From positions 1-36,634 of the IMG/VR virus record IMGVR_UViG_3300030329_001479: 36,634 nucleotides of DNA; one strand, 5' to 3'. The stretch comes from a virus. Positions 17,504 through 25,746 of the stretch are shown one piece after another. Numbering within the stretch: position 1 is the stretch's first letter; each line of letters starts with the position of its first letter. The notes beneath the pieces were generated by a model. That model saw only the letters and a list, made by a program, of their open reading frames with translations. It did not search any database and was not told the origin of the DNA. The translations under genes were made by a program, and so were the position numbers.

Positions 17504-18184
17504 ATGCCTAGAATAATTAAACCTTCAACAGGAGCTTTTACATCAACAAGTTTATCCGTTGACTCATCAGGAAGAGTTTATTCAGCTTCTAGTGGAGCTG
17601 GAGCCGCAATGTTTAGAACTACACTCAAAGCAGTAGGCGGTCAATCAGGAACTTACACAGCTAAATCTAATTCAACAAAAGCACTTGTTTTTATCTCTGG
17701 CGGCGGCGGTGGCGGATCTGGACAGGGGGGCCCGGGATCGGGATCCGGTGGAAGTATGACTTACGGTACATATTTTTCTCCAGCACCTTCTCCAACAAGC
17801 TGGTATTTTTCCGCTGGTAGCGGTGGTAACGGTGGCGGTAGAATGCAAGGAACTGCTCAATGTGGTGGAGATGGCCAAGCAACTAATTTTGGACAACCAG
17901 CAATTGTAACAGCCAATGGTGCTAATAGAGGATGTAATCCTGGTGGTGGCGGTTCGGGTAATGCTGGAAACTGGACTACTAATGCACCTTCAAATACAGT
18001 GGCATATAATGACCCATCTCCAGTAGGACAAGGAAACGAATTAACACAAGCAACATGGTTAAACATGGTCGGAACTCCGAGCGGTAATACCTATGGACAA
18101 GGTGGTAGTCCTTCAACTACAGGGCAAGCTGGTGGACAGGGTGTTGTTTGCATCTGGGAAGATGCAGGAGCGGATGGATTCTAA
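17504..18184 (+). CDS. Glycine-rich adhesin candidate (receptor-binding tip)
   Basis: A 226-residue protein with three or more glycine-rich blocks: SGGGGGGSGQGGPGSGSGG (about 69-88), then AGSGGNGGGR, then NPGGGGSGNAGN, and GQGGSPSTTGQAGG near the end, with a Cys-containing terminus (VVCIWEDAGADGF). Layered poly-glycine stretches are known in phage adhesins such as gp38 of Salmonella phage S16, where they form packed polyglycine helices capped by variable loops. The N-terminal residues (1-65) look like an attachment region. GGGAGG gives a strong ribosome site. This is the best candidate for the host-binding tip; the comparison is by composition, not by established homology. Confidence 0.65.
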   Translation: MPRIIKPSTGAFTSTSLSVDSSGRVYSASSGAGAAMFRTTLKAVGGQSGTYTAKSNSTKALVFISGGGGGGSGQGGPGSGSGGSMTYGTYFSPAPSPTSWYFSAGSGGNGGGRMQGTAQCGGDGQATNFGQPAIVTANGANRGCNPGGGGSGNAGNWTTNAPSNTVAYNDPSPVGQGNELTQATWLNMVGTPSGNTYGQGGSPSTTGQAGGQGVVCIWEDAGADGF

Positions 18185-18676: not shown

Positions 18677-19450
18677 ATGCTTAATAATACTATAGAATTT
18701 GCATGTCATCCAGAATATATCAAAAGAGAAAAAGATGTTTATCCTATACCTGCTTCCTTTAATATTCCTGAATGGTTTAAAAAATTAAAACATAAAGCTA
18801 CACAACGCACCGTCAAAGGTTGCCTTCCTTTTTTAGACACTTTGACTGCAGGATATATATTAAAGCTTCCCCAGGATCTTCATTTGAGATCTAATTTTAA
18901 AATGGAAAGAATAAATGAAAAAGGAGAAAAAGAAATAATACAAAATGCGTATGGACAACGGGCTGCCTTATCTAATTCCGTGCCTACTAATGAGATTAAT
19001 ATTAATTTAAGAGGAGAAGAGTCTCAGGAAAGAAGTCAATTAGAAGGATCTCCTTTACTTGAAAAAAATAATAATATGCCTAAAGTCATGAAGATAGTAA
19101 ATCCATGGCATATTAAAACTCCTCCTGGTTATTCATGTTTATTTGTTTCTCCTTTGAATAATGATAAAAATGATAAGTTTCATATAATTGCTGGTATTGT
19201 GGATACGGATACTTATGAGTTAGAAATTAATTTTCCTTATATTGTAAATGGAGATAAATATAAAACTTTAAATGAGATTATACCTAAAGGAACTCCCTAT
19301 GTACAAGTTATCCCTTTTAAAAGAGAAAATTGGAAAATGAAAATTAAAAGTAGAAATATTAAAGAAAAGTTTTGGACGGATTTTTTATTAAACACCCGCT
19401 TTTTACACAACTATAAACTTAAATATTGGAATAAAAAGACATGGAAATAG
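18677..19450 (+). CDS. DUF6065-like protein heading the oxygenase cassette
   Basis: A 257-residue protein with PIPASFNIPEWFKKL (about 23-37), CLPFLDTLTAGYILKLPQDL (about 49-68), NPWHIKTPPGYSCLFV (about 142-157) and IPKGTPYVQVIPFKRENW near residues 213-230. This order matches what I remember of the DUF6065 family, common in bacteria and phages and without an assigned reaction. The last part has the look of a small jelly roll (cupin-like), which would be in keeping with the oxygenases beside it, but the metal-binding residues are not obvious. It overlaps the next gene by 10 bases and is the promoter-proximal gene of the cassette. The family name is from memory and should be checked. Confidence 0.6.
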   Translation: MLNNTIEFACHPEYIKREKDVYPIPASFNIPEWFKKLKHKATQRTVKGCLPFLDTLTAGYILKLPQDLHLRSNFKMERINEKGEKEIIQNAYGQRAALSNSVPTNEININLRGEESQERSQLEGSPLLEKNNNMPKVMKIVNPWHIKTPPGYSCLFVSPLNNDKNDKFHIIAGIVDTDTYELEINFPYIVNGDKYKTLNEIIPKGTPYVQVIPFKRENWKMKIKSRNIKEKFWTDFLLNTRFLHNYKLKYWNKKTWK

Positions 19451-20013
19451 AAGATTATATAAAAATTTATGATGAAGTAATTCCTTATCCAATGCTTTCT
19501 ATTTTTATAAAATGGATTAATACTATTGAGTTTACTAAAGCTACTGTTTTAACTCACGACGGAAAGAGTGTTTTAAATGAAAAAAGTAGAAGTGTTAATG
19601 AACATGCGCTTTTTTTTCATAGCAATTCAAAGACTAATGTAAAATGGACTAATTATTTATTTCAAAATTTTCTTAAAAAATCTAGTTTATATTGTTCCAA
19701 TTTCATTCATCCTCCTCAATATCAATTTATAAATTATATGAGTATTTTAAAATATGAAAAAAATGATCATTATAAGTATCACACAGATCACGCTCCTAGT
19801 GAACATAGAACTTTAAGTTTAATCTACTTATTAAATAATGATTATAAAGGAGGAAATCTATTATTTACGGATGCTAAAACTCAAAAAGAAGAATTTATGG
19901 TTGAAGTAAAAGCTAATAGATTAATTATATGGCCTAGCAACTTTATGTTTCCTCATAAAGTTTCTCCAGTTACAGAAGGAACAAGATATTCGGTGGTTGC
20001 ATGGATGATATAA
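19441..20013 (+). CDS. 2OG-Fe(II) oxygenase, prolyl-hydroxylase type (1 of 6)
   Basis: A 190-residue protein with a complete set of 2-oxoglutarate/Fe(II) dioxygenase residues: H114-x-D116 in KYHTDHAP, H172 in FPHKVSPV, and R182 ten residues later, the usual 2OG-binding spacing. GGNLLF (137-142) matches the strand after the first metal site in prolyl-4-hydroxylase-like proteins. The family couples decarboxylation of 2OG to hydroxylation of an amino acid side chain, base or small molecule. It overlaps the previous gene by 10 bases and the next by 13. The substrate cannot be read from the sequence; protein hydroxylation is the first guess. Confidence 0.85.
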   Translation: MEIEDYIKIYDEVIPYPMLSIFIKWINTIEFTKATVLTHDGKSVLNEKSRSVNEHALFFHSNSKTNVKWTNYLFQNFLKKSSLYCSNFIHPPQYQFINYMSILKYEKNDHYKYHTDHAPSEHRTLSLIYLLNNDYKGGNLLFTDAKTQKEEFMVEVKANRLIIWPSNFMFPHKVSPVTEGTRYSVVAWMI

Positions 20014-20561
20014 GAAAATTTAAATATAAAAAAATAAAAAACTTTTTATCTAAGCAAGAGATAAATTTATTAAAAATTTATTGTGATATAAAACATAGGA
20101 TATATTCTCCTAACAAGAACATGACAGATACTCAGTCTACTGATAGCAGTTATTATGGGGATCCTGCCATGGAAGCTTTATTATTATCTAAGCATAAAAA
20201 AATGGAGAAATTAACAGGATTAAAATTGTTTCCTACTTATGCTTATTGGAGAATGTATACTTATGGGGCTATTTTAAAAGAGCATGATGATCGACAGTCT
20301 TGTGAAATATCTGTCACTGTTTGTATAGATAAAGAAAAAATAGATTGGCCCATTTATATAGATGGTACCAGAATAGATATGGAACCAGGAGATGCAGCGA
20401 TTTATTTAGGATGTGAACTTAAACATTGGAGAGAAGAATTTAAAGGAGATTTTCAAGCTCAAGCTTTTTTACATTATGTAGATCAACATGGTCCTAATGC
20501 AGAATGGCGAGCTGATAAGAGAATGTTATTTGGAACAAAGCAACAAACACAAGGAGGATAA
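20001..20561 (+). CDS. 2OG-Fe(II) oxygenase (2 of 6), atypical arginine
   Basis: A 186-residue protein with H95-x-D97 (EHDDRQ) and a distal His at 142 in LKHWREEFKG. The usual Arg or Lys about ten residues after the distal His is not found: Q152 is at that place, although R144 and K148 are close. The core between (CEISVTVCID, DMEPGDAAIYLG) fits a jelly roll. The pattern HWREE followed by FLHYVD is one I know from oxygenase-like proteins of marine phages. It may bind 2OG in an altered way or be inactive. It overlaps its neighbour by 13 bases, and the next gene starts one base after its stop. Confidence 0.75.
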   Translation: MDDIRKFKYKKIKNFLSKQEINLLKIYCDIKHRIYSPNKNMTDTQSTDSSYYGDPAMEALLLSKHKKMEKLTGLKLFPTYAYWRMYTYGAILKEHDDRQSCEISVTVCIDKEKIDWPIYIDGTRIDMEPGDAAIYLGCELKHWREEFKGDFQAQAFLHYVDQHGPNAEWRADKRMLFGTKQQTQGG

Positions 20562-20562
20562 A

Positions 20563-20883
20563 ATGCAATTTGTACAAAAAGAAGATGGAGGTGTTAATAT
20601 ATATTTTAATGATATAGATAAAATAGCTATTAACAAGAAAGGAGTTATTAATATTTCACCCAAGGTAGCTAAGGTAATGGGAGATGAATTCGTCAGAATA
20701 GCATGGAATATAAAAAATGCTACATTAGCTGAAGATGCTACTCCCGCAAGTGAAGAAAAAAAATTTGTACCTAGAAAAATAAAAAAGAATTTTGATTATA
20801 TAGAAAGAACATCTCATTATTATAGTTGGAAGGTTGGAAAATATATTTTTTATATGGGAACTATGCATTGGAAAGATGATTGA
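20563..20883 (+). CDS. Small protein inside the oxygenase cassette, unknown
   Basis: A 106-residue protein from ATG 20563, chosen over an upstream in-frame start at 20488 because AAGGAGG lies 6 bases before it. It has an N-terminal alpha/beta part (VNIYFNDIDKIAINKKG, VGDEFVRIAWNI-like strand) and a basic, aromatic C-terminus (HYYSWKVGKYIFYMG). It lacks HxD and cysteine motifs, so it is not an oxygenase. It separates the second and third oxygenase genes and overlaps the latter by 8 bases. A partner or substrate-presenting factor is possible, but this is speculation. Confidence 0.65.
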   Translation: MQFVQKEDGGVNIYFNDIDKIAINKKGVINISPKVAKVMGDEFVRIAWNIKNATLAEDATPASEEKKFVPRKIKKNFDYIERTSHYYSWKVGKYIFYMGTMHWKDD

Positions 20884-21412
20884 AATAGAAAAACAAATTG
20901 AAAGAACGATTCCTCGCGACGTTTTTTATTATCAGTTGACTTTAGATATAGATAAAAAAGATTTGCAATATCTTAAATCTAAAATTGATAAAGGTATTAA
21001 AGAAAAAGGAAACATGAGTGGAGTTACGAATGTTAAAGGTAATATGACTCCCTGGTTATTTTTTTCAAGAGATGAAGTTTTTCAAAAATATTTAAAGATA
21101 GCATTTGATACTTTCAATAATCAAGGAATACGATTACACGTAGGTCTTAAAGAAGCGTGGGGGGTCAGAGTCGATAAAAAACAATGGACTGCATTTCACG
21201 ATCATGATCCGAATTGGTTAGCTGGTATTTTATATTTATCGGATACTGACCTTCCAATAATTTTTAAGGATATAAATGTCCAGACTAAACCGAGAGTAGG
21301 AAAATTTATTGTATGGTCAGGTTATATTCATCATGGAAATGAAGAAAAGAATCCTTATGATTCTAAATACGCTATTGCTTTTAATTGTAGTGAAATAAAG
21401 ACATGGGAATAG
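20876..21412 (+). CDS. 2OG-Fe(II) oxygenase, HxH type (3 of 6)
   Basis: A 178-residue protein from ATG 20876 (an upstream in-frame start at 20834 would lengthen the overlap). The first metal motif reads FHDHDPNWLAGILYL, with H108 and H110, aligning with the HMHPDTHLSG of the product of 22393-22983; the distal site is in SGYIHHGNEEK (H142/H143), and K154 stands where Arg is usual. This fits the type with HxH, recalling the phage-rich 2OG-FeII_Oxy_5 group (PF13759) in a diverged form. A lysine in place of arginine is known in some 2OG enzymes. It overlaps both neighbours by 8 and 10 bases. Confidence 0.75.
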   Translation: MIEIEKQIERTIPRDVFYYQLTLDIDKKDLQYLKSKIDKGIKEKGNMSGVTNVKGNMTPWLFFSRDEVFQKYLKIAFDTFNNQGIRLHVGLKEAWGVRVDKKQWTAFHDHDPNWLAGILYLSDTDLPIIFKDINVQTKPRVGKFIVWSGYIHHGNEEKNPYDSKYAIAFNCSEIKTWE

Positions 21413-21894
21413 AAACTAAAGTTATTGATAATTTTATAAAAGATGAAGATCTTTTTAAAACTTTACAATATTTTTATACTTATAAAACTCCACATAAGTT
21501 TATGGGTTATTCAAGTGATCCTAATAAAGTTAATTTTTATTTTAGTCTTTTAGATAAAGAAGATATTATGCAACATTATTTTTTAAAATTAATTTCAAAC
21601 GTTGTTAAGAAAAATTTTGAAGTATTTCGTATGTATTTAAATATACAACATAAAGAAATGGATGGAGATTGGCACATAGATACGGATCCTACAGAACCAG
21701 TTAATTGTACAGCTCTTCTGATGATTCGAGGATCTGGACCCTTTGAAATAAAAAATGAAACTATAGTCGATTTTGTTCCTAATAGATTTATTCTCTTTGA
21801 TGCCGCTAAAGAGCATAAAGGACATGCACCAGATAAAGATACTCCAAGAATAACTTTAGCTGCAAAACTGTTTATAAATAATGAAGATATATAA
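21403..21894 (+). CDS. 2OG-Fe(II) oxygenase (4 of 6)
   Basis: A 163-residue protein with DGDWHIDTDPTEP (H91-x-D93) and the distal site LFDAAKEHKGHAPDKDTPR (H138 or H141, R149). Spacing between H138 and R149 is 11 residues, as in many 2OG oxygenases. Compared with the first oxygenase it is shorter at the N-terminus. The start junction (AAGACATGGGAATAGAA) is nearly identical to that of 19441, an unexpected similarity between two gene borders. It overlaps neighbours by 10 and 14 bases. The substrate is unknown. Confidence 0.8.
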   Translation: MGIETKVIDNFIKDEDLFKTLQYFYTYKTPHKFMGYSSDPNKVNFYFSLLDKEDIMQHYFLKLISNVVKKNFEVFRMYLNIQHKEMDGDWHIDTDPTEPVNCTALLMIRGSGPFEIKNETIVDFVPNRFILFDAAKEHKGHAPDKDTPRITLAAKLFINNEDI

Positions 21895-22396
21895 AGATTT
21901 TTTTCCTTCTTATATTTACGAGATTATTCTTAAATATTTAGAAAAAACTCCGTTTGTCATAGATCCGACTCCGTTGGCTCAAGACATTGATAAATCTGTA
22001 CCTAGATTAACCCCTACATCTTATCAAGGATTTATTCATCAAAGTTTTCCCCAGGACCCTCACTCTAATTTAAATTTGAATTTTTTTGCTGGAATGGCTT
22101 TAATTAAAATTAAAAATGAAGAAAAAAAGATTTTTAATCTAGAAAGAGTTCTATTTAATTACTTAACAAAAGGTACAGTGGGACAACTTCATTATGATGC
22201 TAAGGAAGATAATGCTTATACTTTTATTCTTAATCTTACGGATGGTGATGGCGGCACTCAAGTTAATAATAAATTTTATAAAAATAATTTTAATGAAGGT
22301 TTATTATTTAAAAGTAATATTTTACATCAAGGCATAGGACCTACTGAAGGTTTATACCGGCAGAATATGGCTCTTATTTTAAGAGAACAACAATGA
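21881..22396 (+). CDS. 2OG-Fe(II) oxygenase (5 of 6)
   Basis: A 171-residue protein with H104-x-D106 (QLHYDAKED), distal H149 (SNILHQGIGP) and R160 eleven residues later, so the metal and 2OG sites are complete. The strand between reads TFILNLTDGDGGTQV. Its N-terminus (YKDFFPSYIYEIILKYLEK) is a helix as in the other members. It overlaps the next gene by 4 bases (ATGA). Fold and motifs are clear; what is hydroxylated is not. Confidence 0.85.
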   Translation: MKIYKDFFPSYIYEIILKYLEKTPFVIDPTPLAQDIDKSVPRLTPTSYQGFIHQSFPQDPHSNLNLNFFAGMALIKIKNEEKKIFNLERVLFNYLTKGTVGQLHYDAKEDNAYTFILNLTDGDGGTQVNNKFYKNNFNEGLLFKSNILHQGIGPTEGLYRQNMALILREQQ

Positions 22397-22983
22397 TCAT
22401 TGATATATTTAAAACATCTATTTATAGAAACAGGCTTAATGATAAAGAGCTAGATAAGTTAATTTTAGAAACTTTAAAAAATCCTAAATATACAAATATT
22501 AATAAATCTAATATTGGAGGGAAACAGATTCATCCTAATGAAACAAAAATTGAAAAACGGTTATTAGAAAATTTTACTACATGTTTACCGGATTACTTTG
22601 AAGGAGCTAGTATTCAACATAATATTATAAAATGGCAAATAAAAAATTATTGGATTAATGAAAACTATAAATATAATTATAATATGACTCATATGCATCC
22701 GGACACTCATTTATCTGGGGTTTATTATTGTAAGGTTCCTAAAAATTCTGGGAATATAGTATTTATAGATGGCTATAAGGATTTAAAAAATATATGGTCT
22801 ACTCCACCTTTGGAGTGTTCTTTACAAAATTCTGAATATACCATAACTCCTTTTGCTGGTTTACTACTGCTTTTTCCTTCTTATCTTCATCATTATGTAA
22901 CTCAAAGTAATAGTGATGACTCACGAATATCTTTATCATTTAATATAAATTTTTATGGCTCAGAGAAAACTACTAACAATTGA
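22393..22983 (+). CDS. 2OG-Fe(II) oxygenase, PF13759-like (6 of 6)
   Basis: A 196-residue protein with THMHPDTHLSGVYYC (H100, H102, D104), a GxxxF strand followed by GNIVFIDGYKD, the distal FPSYLHHYVTQ (H166/H167) and R178 in DDSRISLSFN. This order is the hallmark of the 2OG-FeII_Oxy_5 family, widespread in cyanophages and marine phages. It is the most recognisable of the six. It overlaps the next gene by 29 bases. In phages its substrate has not been established. Confidence 0.88.
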   Translation: MIIDIFKTSIYRNRLNDKELDKLILETLKNPKYTNINKSNIGGKQIHPNETKIEKRLLENFTTCLPDYFEGASIQHNIIKWQIKNYWINENYKYNYNMTHMHPDTHLSGVYYCKVPKNSGNIVFIDGYKDLKNIWSTPPLECSLQNSEYTITPFAGLLLLFPSYLHHYVTQSNSDDSRISLSFNINFYGSEKTTNN

Positions 22984-23509
22984 TTTAGATTGGATTCAAA
23001 ATCCTAGACAATTTAATGATATCCTATCTTTATGTATGGAACTTTTTAAAAATAAGATTCCTACTATTTTTATTAAGTCTCATCATGAAATATACAACCA
23101 TATTAATGAAGAAGAATTTATAATCAACATAGATCATCACCATGATTTTGGTTATGATAATCTTTCTATAAGGCAAGCTTTAGACAATATGTTAAGGGAG
23201 GGGAATTGGGTATTAGGGGCAGCTATTCATAAAAAACTTAAAGGTTATGTATGGATAAAAAACTATAATTCTGTTTTTATTCCTGATCATATTACCGATT
23301 GGATTAGAAATTTAGACACTCTTCAAATTAGAAATAAGATTGAAGAGGTAGATTTTAAAAATATTTATAAAGTAGTAATATGTGAAAGCGCTGAATATGA
23401 AAAAAACGTTAGTCTTTATTCAGATATATTGAAGAAAATCTCTAGAAGTATTAACCCTAATACAGAAATAACCGACAATAAAAACTCTTTTAAACACCTA
23501 AATTCTTGA
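22955..23509 (+). CDS. Putative metal-dependent hydrolase with DHHHD motif
   Basis: A 184-residue protein with TIDLDW (D10, D12), SHHEIY (H43, H44, E45) and NIDHHHDFGYDN (D60 to D64). The D-x-D plus histidine-rich plus DHHHD arrangement, at the ends of predicted beta strands, is suggestive of an arginase-like metal site as in UPF0489 proteins, a family that includes peptide arginases from peptide-natural-product clusters. DHH-type phosphoesterases are the alternative. Residues 120-184 are helical. It is the last gene of the cassette, and its stop codon TGA is part of the promoter-like sequence for the next gene. Family placement is tentative. Confidence 0.5.
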   Translation: MAQRKLLTIDLDWIQNPRQFNDILSLCMELFKNKIPTIFIKSHHEIYNHINEEEFIINIDHHHDFGYDNLSIRQALDNMLREGNWVLGAAIHKKLKGYVWIKNYNSVFIPDHITDWIRNLDTLQIRNKIEEVDFKNIYKVVICESAEYEKNVSLYSDILKKISRSINPNTEITDNKNSFKHLNS

Positions 23510-23541: not shown

Positions 23542-25746
23542 ATGCTACAAAAAATAGGGTTTTTACCTGGTTTTAATAAACAAATTACCCCCACAGGAGC
23601 CGAAGCACAATGGACCGGGGGAGAAAATGTTCGTTTTAGATATGGAACCCCTGAAAAGATAGGTGGTTGGCAATCTTTAGGAGATAAGAAGTTGACGGGC
23701 GCTGCTAGAGACCTTCATCACATGGTTAATAAAGAAGGAATTAAATATGCAGCTATTGGAACCAATAGAATTTTATATGTTTATTCTGGAGGAGTTTATT
23801 ATGATATTCATCCTTTAACTAATCCATCTGGAACTGCTATTACAAATGCTTTTAGTACAACAAATGGATCAAAAACTGTAACTTTAACTTTTGCTAGTGC
23901 TCATAATTTTAAAGCCGGAGATATTATACTATTTGGAGCAACTTCTACTTTTTCATCTATTACTAATTCAAATTTTGGCGCATCTGATTTTTGTGATAAA
24001 AAATTTATGGTTACTACTGTTCCTACTACCACTACTTTAACCATAACAATGGATGATACGGAAGGTGGTTCAGGAGCTAGTGAATCAGGAGGAATTACTT
24101 ATTATAGATATTACCACGTGGGACCCGCTGAACAGGTGGGAGTCTATGGCTGGGGTATATCTCAGTTTGGTGGTACTGTAACTAATCCACAAACAACAAC
24201 TTTAAATGGAGCTTTGTCCGCTAACGCATATGGAACTGGAGGATCAGGAACTTCTATTACATTAACGAGTACTACAGGATTTCCCACAACAGGGACAAAT
24301 TATATTCAAGTAGGAAGTGAAGAAATTTCTTACACTGGAGTTTCTGGAAATGATTTAACTGGGATTACTAGAAATGTTAGAGGAACCTCTAATGCATCTC
24401 ACTCTGATGGTGCAACCGTAACTAATACCAGTGATTATGCTGCATGGGGTCAAGCTGCAGCAACAACGGATAAAGTTGCAGAACCAGGACTTTGGGCTCT
24501 AGATAATTATGGTTCTAAACTTATTGCATTAATTGTTAATGGCTCAGTATTTGAATGGGATGCTGATGCTACAAACGCAACAGCAACTAGAGCAACTATT
24601 ATATCGGGTGCACCTACAGCATCTCGAGATATGTTAGTTTCTACACCCGATCGTCACTTAGTTTTATTTGGAACTGAAACAACGATTGGAGATACCGATA
24701 CACAAGATGATATGTTTATAAGATTCTCGTCTCAAGAAACATTATCTACTTGGACACCCACTTCAACTAATACCGCTGGTACACAAAGACTGGCTGCCGG
24801 ATCACGGATCATGGGAGCTGAGCTTGGAAGAAATGCAATTTACGTATGGACAGATACCTCATTATTTACCATGCGTTTTGTAGGCCAACCTTTTACTTTC
24901 GCATTCGAACAAGTAGGAACGAACTGTGGATTAATAGGAATGAATGCAGCGGTTGAAGTTGATGGAGCTGCTTACTGGATGTCGGAAAATGGTTTCTTTA
25001 GATTTACTGGTAAACTAGAATCTTTAGATTGTTTGGTAGAAGACTATGTTTATGATGATATTAATACTACTTCTAATCAAATGATATGTTGTGGAGTTAA
25101 TAACTTATTTGGAGAAGTATTATGGTTCTATCCAACTTCAGATTCTAATGTAAATAATAGATGTGTTTTTTATAGTTATTTAGATTCAACGGTTAATAGA
25201 CCTATATGGTACACTAATGCAAACTCATTATGGCCTAGAACTACTTGGCAGGATTCAGCTATTTTTGGTAAGCCGCATGCAACTTATTTCGATGCAGATA
25301 CAGATTCATCCTTTGATGTTACAGGAAATACTGAAGGCGTTACTTATTACTATGAACATGAAACAGGAACTAATCAAATTAAAATTGGAACAACAAGTGC
25401 TATACCGGCTAACATATTATCTGGAGATTTTGATATTACTCAAGATCAAAGACAAGGAATTACGTTTAGAGGAGATGGGGAATATATAATGAGAGTTAGT
25501 AGATTTTTACCTGACTTTATAACCCAAGCAGGTAATACTATTGTTACACTAAATTTGCGAGATTTTCCTAATGAAACCGCAGCTAGTTCAACGTTAGGAC
25601 CTTTTACCATTACATCTTCTACTAAGTATCAATCTTGTAGAGCCCGAGGTAGATCTGTTGCATTTAAGATAGCAAACACAGCGGTAGATTCTAATTGGAA
25701 ATTGGGAACTTTTAGGTTAGATGTACATGCAGGAGGAAGAAGATAA
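23542..25746 (+). CDS. Large tail protein, P22 gp10-like stabilisation type
   Basis: A 734-residue protein opening FLPGFNKQITPTGAEAQW then ENVRFRYGTPEKIGGW (about 7-43), a start I associate with tail accessory proteins of the P22 gp10 / phage stabilisation group (PF11134-like), which lock the tail to the adaptor ring. The remainder is beta-rich and probably propeller-like. Residues about 235-294 carry TSITLTS, GFPTTGTNYIQVGSE, ISYTGVSGNDLTG and HSDGATV, matching a module in 13281-14096. It has its own promoter-like sequence and AAGGA. Good match in length for the family; exact role in this particle is inferred. Confidence 0.7.
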   Translation: MLQKIGFLPGFNKQITPTGAEAQWTGGENVRFRYGTPEKIGGWQSLGDKKLTGAARDLHHMVNKEGIKYAAIGTNRILYVYSGGVYYDIHPLTNPSGTAITNAFSTTNGSKTVTLTFASAHNFKAGDIILFGATSTFSSITNSNFGASDFCDKKFMVTTVPTTTTLTITMDDTEGGSGASESGGITYYRYYHVGPAEQVGVYGWGISQFGGTVTNPQTTTLNGALSANAYGTGGSGTSITLTSTTGFPTTGTNYIQVGSEEISYTGVSGNDLTGITRNVRGTSNASHSDGATVTNTSDYAAWGQAAATTDKVAEPGLWALDNYGSKLIALIVNGSVFEWDADATNATATRATIISGAPTASRDMLVSTPDRHLVLFGTETTIGDTDTQDDMFIRFSSQETLSTWTPTSTNTAGTQRLAAGSRIMGAELGRNAIYVWTDTSLFTMRFVGQPFTFAFEQVGTNCGLIGMNAAVEVDGAAYWMSENGFFRFTGKLESLDCLVEDYVYDDINTTSNQMICCGVNNLFGEVLWFYPTSDSNVNNRCVFYSYLDSTVNRPIWYTNANSLWPRTTWQDSAIFGKPHATYFDADTDSSFDVTGNTEGVTYYYEHETGTNQIKIGTTSAIPANILSGDFDITQDQRQGITFRGDGEYIMRVSRFLPDFITQAGNTIVTLNLRDFPNETAASSTLGPFTITSSTKYQSCRARGRSVAFKIANTAVDSNWKLGTFRLDVHAGGRR

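Follow-up and report, generated by a model that had tools for sequence, protein, structure and literature searches.

A row of six 2-oxoglutarate-Fe(II) oxygenase genes beside the fibre genes of a pelagiphage relative, and the slot that holds such rows in related phages

The six oxygenase genes of the window

The viral DNA analysed here, the 36.6-kb IMG/VR virus record IMGVR_UViG_3300030329_001479 (in full 36,634 nucleotides, hereafter the window), carries a row of six open reading frames (ORFs) for 2-oxoglutarate (2OG)-Fe(II) oxygenases just after its fibre genes (Table 1). The row is interrupted only once, by a small unrelated gene. The oxygenase ORFs share 4-14 bases with their neighbours, except that the second ends one base short of this 106-residue gene. 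A sequence-only reading of the window had described six neighbouring, diverged oxygenase genes, and its coordinates, overlaps and families agree with ours. In gene order and proteins the nearest relatives of the window phage are pelagiphages of the HTVC023P/HTVC027P type and phage 023Pt_psg01, and the flanking virion protein is 44-48% identical. By sequence comparison the phage is a relative of the HTVC023P-type pelagiphages, a group related to phages of the most numerous bacteria in the ocean, and because of this closeness a SAR11 host is likely.

The six genes belong to four PHROG families (phrog_61, phrog_2954, and two genes each from phrog_81 and phrog_274), and only three of them have Pfam matches. 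A metal triad of the form HxD/E (or HxH)...H was found in all six. Five also have a basic residue at the usual 2OG-binding place, about 10 residues after the distal His, and gene 2 is without it; the sequence-only reading was right on these motifs in detail, the missing residue included. The best match of gene 1 in the PDB is EGLN1/PHD2 (E 5e-5), and prolyl 3-hydroxylase 1 (P3H1) and PiuC are matched as well. The family profile of phrog_81 (genes 3 and 6) matches the solved structures 3bvc (E 4e-27) and 2rg4 (E 5e-24), and the phrog_274 profile aligns with that of phrog_81 over the metal site (hhalign probability 96.7, E 4e-10). In the family of oxygenase 4, residues H91, D93, H138 and R149 are invariant across 20 relatives. 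Genes 1, 3, 4, 5 and 6 are assigned as 2OG oxygenases because their profiles match families in which 2OG structures have been solved. The label 'DNA endonuclease V' of phrog_274 conflicts with the motifs and the profile match of that family. PDB profile searches with the families of gene 2, phrog_274 and the UPF0489-like and DUF6065-like neighbours described below gave nothing credible.

The motif pattern is not a product of chance, since HxD/E/H...H...R/K is present in 282 of 300 profile-found ORFs of the phage group, compared with 23 of 239 other ORFs in a similar size range, and the median ratio of non-synonymous to synonymous substitution rates (dN/dS) is 0.14 over 200 close oxygenase pairs. 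The row oxygenases are under purifying selection.

Gene 2 was at first a doubtful member of the row, because its family, phrog_2954, is named a ferrochelatase in PHROGs, in phage records and in papers (PMC9599517, PMC11561400). An AlphaFold2 model built from an alignment of 56 relatives is confident (predicted local distance difference test, pLDDT, 92; predicted template modelling score 0.88), and the jelly roll that the sequence-only reading had proposed to look for is there, a double-stranded beta-helix like that of prolyl hydroxylases. The best solved matches of the model are SnoN, PHD2, OkaE, the Pseudomonas putida prolyl 4-hydroxylase (P4H) and P3H1 (Z 14.3-15.6), with a best Foldseek E of 4e-7. 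The model does not show the alpha/beta fold of chelatases. As the confident model matches 2OG oxygenases, the ferrochelatase label is unsupported at the level of fold, and ecological claims that rest on ferrochelatases in these phages need revision. In place of the basic residue at its usual position, the family has a near-invariant R84 and invariant R144, Q154 and H158.

The slot and its fibre genes across relatives

Relatives were retrieved by anchoring on the conserved virion gene downstream of the row. We compared 80 loci, then 114 more from IMG/VR with duplicates removed, and four phage records. Neither a search of IMG/VR with oxygenase 5 alone nor a tblastn of oxygenase 5 against phage records found a relative. 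In cultured and uncultured relatives the slot is fixed between the fibre genes and the conserved virion gene; it holds from 0 to 11 oxygenases, and rows are seen in both orientations. HTVC023P has a row of 4-5 genes, and the row of HTVC027P is reversed and has 3. Among rows that are bounded upstream the commonest size is four, with six or more in 18 of 105 loci. The rows of 11 (L027, L076) each have one weak member without a clear HxD. The sequence-only reading had taken a row of six to be exceptional. This did not hold up: co-located genes had been reported in 2022 (PMC9599517), and because rows of four to six are common in the group and rows of 11 occur, a six-gene row is ordinary for these phages. 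What is noteworthy is the pattern across the group.

The fibre side of several long rows has a gene of 167 residues (L002:7823-8326, L004:6536-7039, L041:4506-5009, L048:2879-3382, L076:4085-4588). It has weak similarity to phrog_81 and, in the copies inspected, no clear HxD; it may be an oxygenase in decay or have an accessory role. In two loci an isolated 2OG oxygenase gene lies a long way downstream of the slot and on the other strand (L048:19150-19662 and L044:20983-21465, both minus), so not every 2OG oxygenase sits in a row.

Tandem duplication is ruled out as the origin of the rows. None of 294 oxygenases in the first set has its best match within its own locus, and the top identity inside a locus is 39%. 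The rows are also strikingly free of repeats. When 544 oxygenases were clustered at 35% identity and their 125 rows of two or more were compared with shuffles, 5 same-group repeats were observed where 76 +/- 5.5 were expected; the corresponding figures are 2 against 53 at 40% identity, and 71 against 130 at 30%. The phrog_2954 type is present as exactly one copy in 107 of the 107 loci possessing it. This non-redundancy suggests, but does not prove, that the members of a row have distinct jobs, as homologous recombination could itself remove repeats.

Single oxygenases are freely exchanged between rows: they are shared by rows of otherwise different content, and phages whose virion genes are alike can have unlike rows. 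A sub-module of a DUF6065 gene, a phrog_61 gene, a phrog_2954 gene and the small gene recurs in the same order in the window and in L032, L050, L064 and L069, and the window row looks like this sub-module with four more oxygenases and a UPF0489-like gene.

As a whole, row content tracks the upstream fibre genes and not the genes past the slot. In the first set, row similarity followed that of the upstream genes (partial r 0.40, 0/999 permutations), with no relation to the flanking virion protein (r 0.00). The combined set was reduced to 97 loci by removing near-identical ones, and the DUF6065, UPF0489 and small genes and those of weak 2OG similarity were left out of it. Here the partial Mantel correlation of row and fibre, given the flanking virion gene, is 0.33 (0/499 permutations). 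That of row and flanking virion protein is 0.10 (1/499), and that of row and the genes beyond it, given the fibre, is 0.02 (174/499). This covariation over 97 dereplicated loci, a comparison of the kind that the sequence-only reading had asked for, supports its idea of a cassette of several enzymes that lies in the virion region and is tied to the fibre genes. The sequence-only reading had also held that independent variation of the six genes, relative to each other and to the tail genes, would count against it. This is only partly what is seen: single oxygenases do move about freely, whereas the set as a whole goes with the type of fibre.

One class of fibre stands out. Of 84 loci with forward rows, 61 have a glycine-rich protein at the fibre position, against 0 of 21 with reversed rows (p 3e-10). 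In the first set Gly-rich fibres and row size were clearly related; in the second, the replication set, the relation was weaker (p 0.046), though row size still correlates with local glycine content (r 0.49). Fibre proline content correlates with row size overall (r 0.39), with no correlation inside the Gly-rich or the Gly-poor class, and arginine content correlates with it within Gly-rich proteins only; these residue correlations are exploratory and uncorrected for relatedness.

Neighbouring genes and the proposed target of the row

Table 1. Oxygenase genes of the row and their neighbours, in positions of the window.
Feature	Position	Strand	Evidence
Gly-rich (23% Gly) fibre-tip/adhesin-like protein	17504..18184	+	weak PF21722 Gly_rich_2, 21.1 bits (cut-off 24.3)
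DUF6065-like protein	18677..19450	+	phrog_7084 E 1e-40
Oxygenase 1 (P4H/PHD-like)	19441..20013	+	phrog_61 E 4e-33, PF13640 E 9e-19; HTD114, H172, R182
Oxygenase 2	20001..20561	+	phrog_2954 E 1e-50; HDD95, H142
Small 106-residue protein, no assigned function	20563..20883	+	last gene of recurring sub-module
Oxygenase 3	20876..21412	+	phrog_81 E 1e-10, PF13759 E 3e-6; HDH108, H152/153
Oxygenase 4	21403..21894	+	phrog_274 E 2e-19; HID91, H138, R149
Oxygenase 5	21881..22396	+	phrog_274 E 9e-16; HYD104, H149, R160
Oxygenase 6	22393..22983	+	phrog_81 E 5e-36, PF13759 E 2e-22; HMH100, H166/167, R178
UPF0489/peptide-arginase-like metallohydrolase candidate	22955..23509	+	weak PF12640, E 0.0075; metal motifs
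Conserved virion gene ('stabilization protein')	23542..25746	+	phrog_3287 E 9e-93; downstream edge of slot

The gene that follows oxygenase 6 may encode a metallohydrolase. UPF0489 includes peptide arginases that act on ribosomal peptides (PMC12707348, PMC10028609, PMC12703449). Their metal motifs are EEH(N/H)E, DxHxD and IDLD (PMC10028609, PMC12703449), and in the biphenomycin case the arginase prefers a peptide that is already hydroxylated (PMC12707348). The window protein has the motifs TIDLD (D10, D12), KSHHE (H43) and DHHHD (D60, H62, D64), and these six metal ligands, which in peptide arginases hold two manganese ions, are all kept in 4 of 4 relatives. Against PF12640 it scores 17.1 bits and its best relative 26.1, both below the curated cut-off of 27; the relatives match at E 1e-5 to 8e-5. 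IDLD is at the N-terminus here and after DxHxD in known peptide arginases, so the protein would, if the assignment is right, be a relative whose motif order has been permuted or rearranged in some other way. The structural model is weak (pLDDT 67), and it places OspR (8brp) 13th, tied with unrelated entries (Z 2.7, root-mean-square deviation 5.2, 108 aligned). The gene always lies immediately before the flanking virion gene (window, L088-L090). A distant match (E 1e-4) is found in cyanophage S-RSM4 (FM207411, 194263-498), adjoining the late transcription factor g33.

Homologues of the DUF6065-like protein match PF19541 (best E 2e-5). They are common in halovirus genomes (Halorubrum, Haloarcula; e.g. 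L006, which is halophage HF1), an odd distribution over marine podoviruses and archaeal tailed viruses. The small protein of the row has no match in Pfam or PHROG; its homologues, of 72-79 residues, are present in L032, L050, L110, L112, L113, L115 and L122. Just past the flanking virion gene there are glycosyltransferase genes in HTVC027P (L003:15468-16415) and HTVC023P (L004:14950-15879), and the window genes at this position have no such PHROG match.

Our best reading is that the row is an exchangeable cassette for protein modification that is inherited together with the receptor-binding fibre. The oxygenases would be made late, together with the virion, and each would use O2 and 2OG to hydroxylate its own residue or site on a protein. 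The adjacent fibre or adhesin would be the most likely target, and we propose the Gly-rich protein as a candidate partner or substrate. Where the UPF0489 gene is present, its product may turn arginine residues of that target into ornithine. A swap of fibre would be accompanied by a swap of part of the enzyme set. As in the sequence-only reading, we infer that the substrate is a virion or host-envelope protein; in our judgement there is a little less than an even chance that the enzymes of the row hydroxylate separate positions on the adjoining fibre or adhesin while the virion is assembled. In favour of this count the fixed slot, the covariation with the fibre genes, the scarcity of same-group repeats and the low dN/dS, and also the nearest solved relatives of genes 1 and 2, among them the protein prolyl hydroxylases PHD2, P. 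putida P4H and P3H1. The UPF0489-like neighbour, if its assignment is right, is the strongest hint at a protein target, for it would put an enzyme that acts on peptides or proteins next to the six hydroxylases, a pairing also seen in the biosynthesis of biphenomycin. A bolder and more doubtful form of this idea is a combinatorial modification code in which every fibre type is paired with a particular set of as many as 11 oxygenases, each specific for a site, and the hydroxylation pattern and the fibre sequence together set host recognition in this abundant marine phage group. If the row does modify the fibre, then its genes belong to virion maturation and not to metabolism, and the host range of abundant ocean phages gains a post-translational layer.

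Several results weigh against a fibre target. SnoN, OkaE and ALKBH5, which are among the top structural matches, act on small molecules or RNA. In the replication set a yes/no test of Gly-rich fibre against row presence is not significant (p 0.15), Gly-poor fibres also occur with rows, and some Gly-rich fibres occur without one. Within fibre classes no fibre residue relates robustly to row size, and the content of proline or other residues was dropped as a substrate clue for this reason. Finally, because the fibre genes adjoin the row and the two could be replaced jointly by recombination, covariation is possible without a functional link. Physical linkage, in place of function, is a serious explanation for every part of the row-fibre association.

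A rather unlikely alternative, though the best of the rivals, is that the enzymes alter the host surface during infection (an envelope protein, lipid or glycan), e.g. in a superinfection block or in progeny release. The covariation with fibre genes would be identical, because the fibre defines the receptor that needs altering and the enzymes would track its type. Glycosyltransferase genes are annotated near the slot in HTVC023P and HTVC027P, and 2OG enzymes that act on lipid A and on sugars are known. That said, the row lies within the virion block and not in an early block, and for the genes examined the top match is never a 2OG family that modifies lipids or sugars.

The published reading for cyanophages and pelagiphages is that such genes are auxiliary metabolic genes (PMC3037559, PMC9599517, PMC11561400), with small-molecule substrates or a draw-down of 2-oxoglutarate as their role. 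It agrees with the rise of host iron uptake genes during HTVC027P infection (PMC12753301) and with the presence of the small-molecule enzymes SnoN and OkaE among the folds nearest to gene 2. However, it offers no reason why row content should follow the fibre and not the remaining genome, or why same-group repeats should be nearly lacking, and at the level of fold the 'ferrochelatase' part of the iron argument falls away. We consider it improbable for these rows.

A recombination hotspot, in which diverged cargo gathers passively beside an exchanged fibre and shares no common pathway, would account for oxygenases that are common to different rows and for rows that differ despite similar virion genes. 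It sits badly with a slot nearly exclusive to one superfamily, with motifs kept in 282 of 300 ORFs and the low dN/dS, and with the single phrog_2954-type gene of each locus that has one; we regard it as distinctly improbable.

Least probable by far is a cluster like those for ribosomally synthesized and post-translationally modified peptides (RiPPs), in which the oxygenases and the arginase-like enzyme would mature a precursor encoded by the 106-residue gene or another small ORF. Hydroxylases and a UPF0489 arginase co-occur in biphenomycin clusters (PMC12707348) and the small gene travels with the DUF6065, phrog_61 and phrog_2954 genes, but the small gene and the UPF0489 gene are absent from most rows, and among relatives of the small protein the C-terminus shows no conserved core.

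Comparison with known systems

Genes 1 and 2 share the fold and the HxD...H site of PHD2/EGLN1 and of P. putida P4H, which was solved with EF-Tu. These enzymes show that the fold can act on proteins. They differ in being single genes with known substrates, and their identity to genes 1 and 2 is only about 10-19%. The peptide arginases OspR and BipC have the six metal ligands and local motifs that are also seen in the UPF0489-like gene, which differs from them in its reordered motifs, a profile score below cut-off and a phage instead of a RiPP context.

Multiple 2OG genes in cyanophages and in HTVC023P-type phages were already known. T4-like cyanophages have as many as five 2OG-Fe(II) genes in one genome, and in addition a distinct family with a 'ferrochelatase domain'; the 2OG genes were interpreted in terms of 2OG draw-down or DNA repair (PMC3037559). 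A protein from the baseplate region of S-RSM4, named '2OG-Fe(II) oxygenase family like', was considered as a fused example and dropped, as it has no 2OG family match.

The closest comparison is with the HTVC023P-type pelagiphages. Eight non-orthologous 2OG types have been reported for them (PMC9599517, PMC11561400), and the 2022 report described co-located 2OG genes as 'nearby ... although not adjacent' and read them as metabolic (PMC9599517). We found no description of long adjacent rows, of their non-redundancy or of a coupling to fibre genes in our searches of open-licence papers. The published 2OG and 'ferrochelatase' genes and those described here have in common the phage group, the families phrog_61 and phrog_2954 and frequent co-location. 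What differs here is that the rows are adjacent and reach 11 genes in a fixed slot, that they are non-redundant and that they covary with the fibre genes, all of which is new, and that phrog_2954 has the predicted fold of a 2OG oxygenase.

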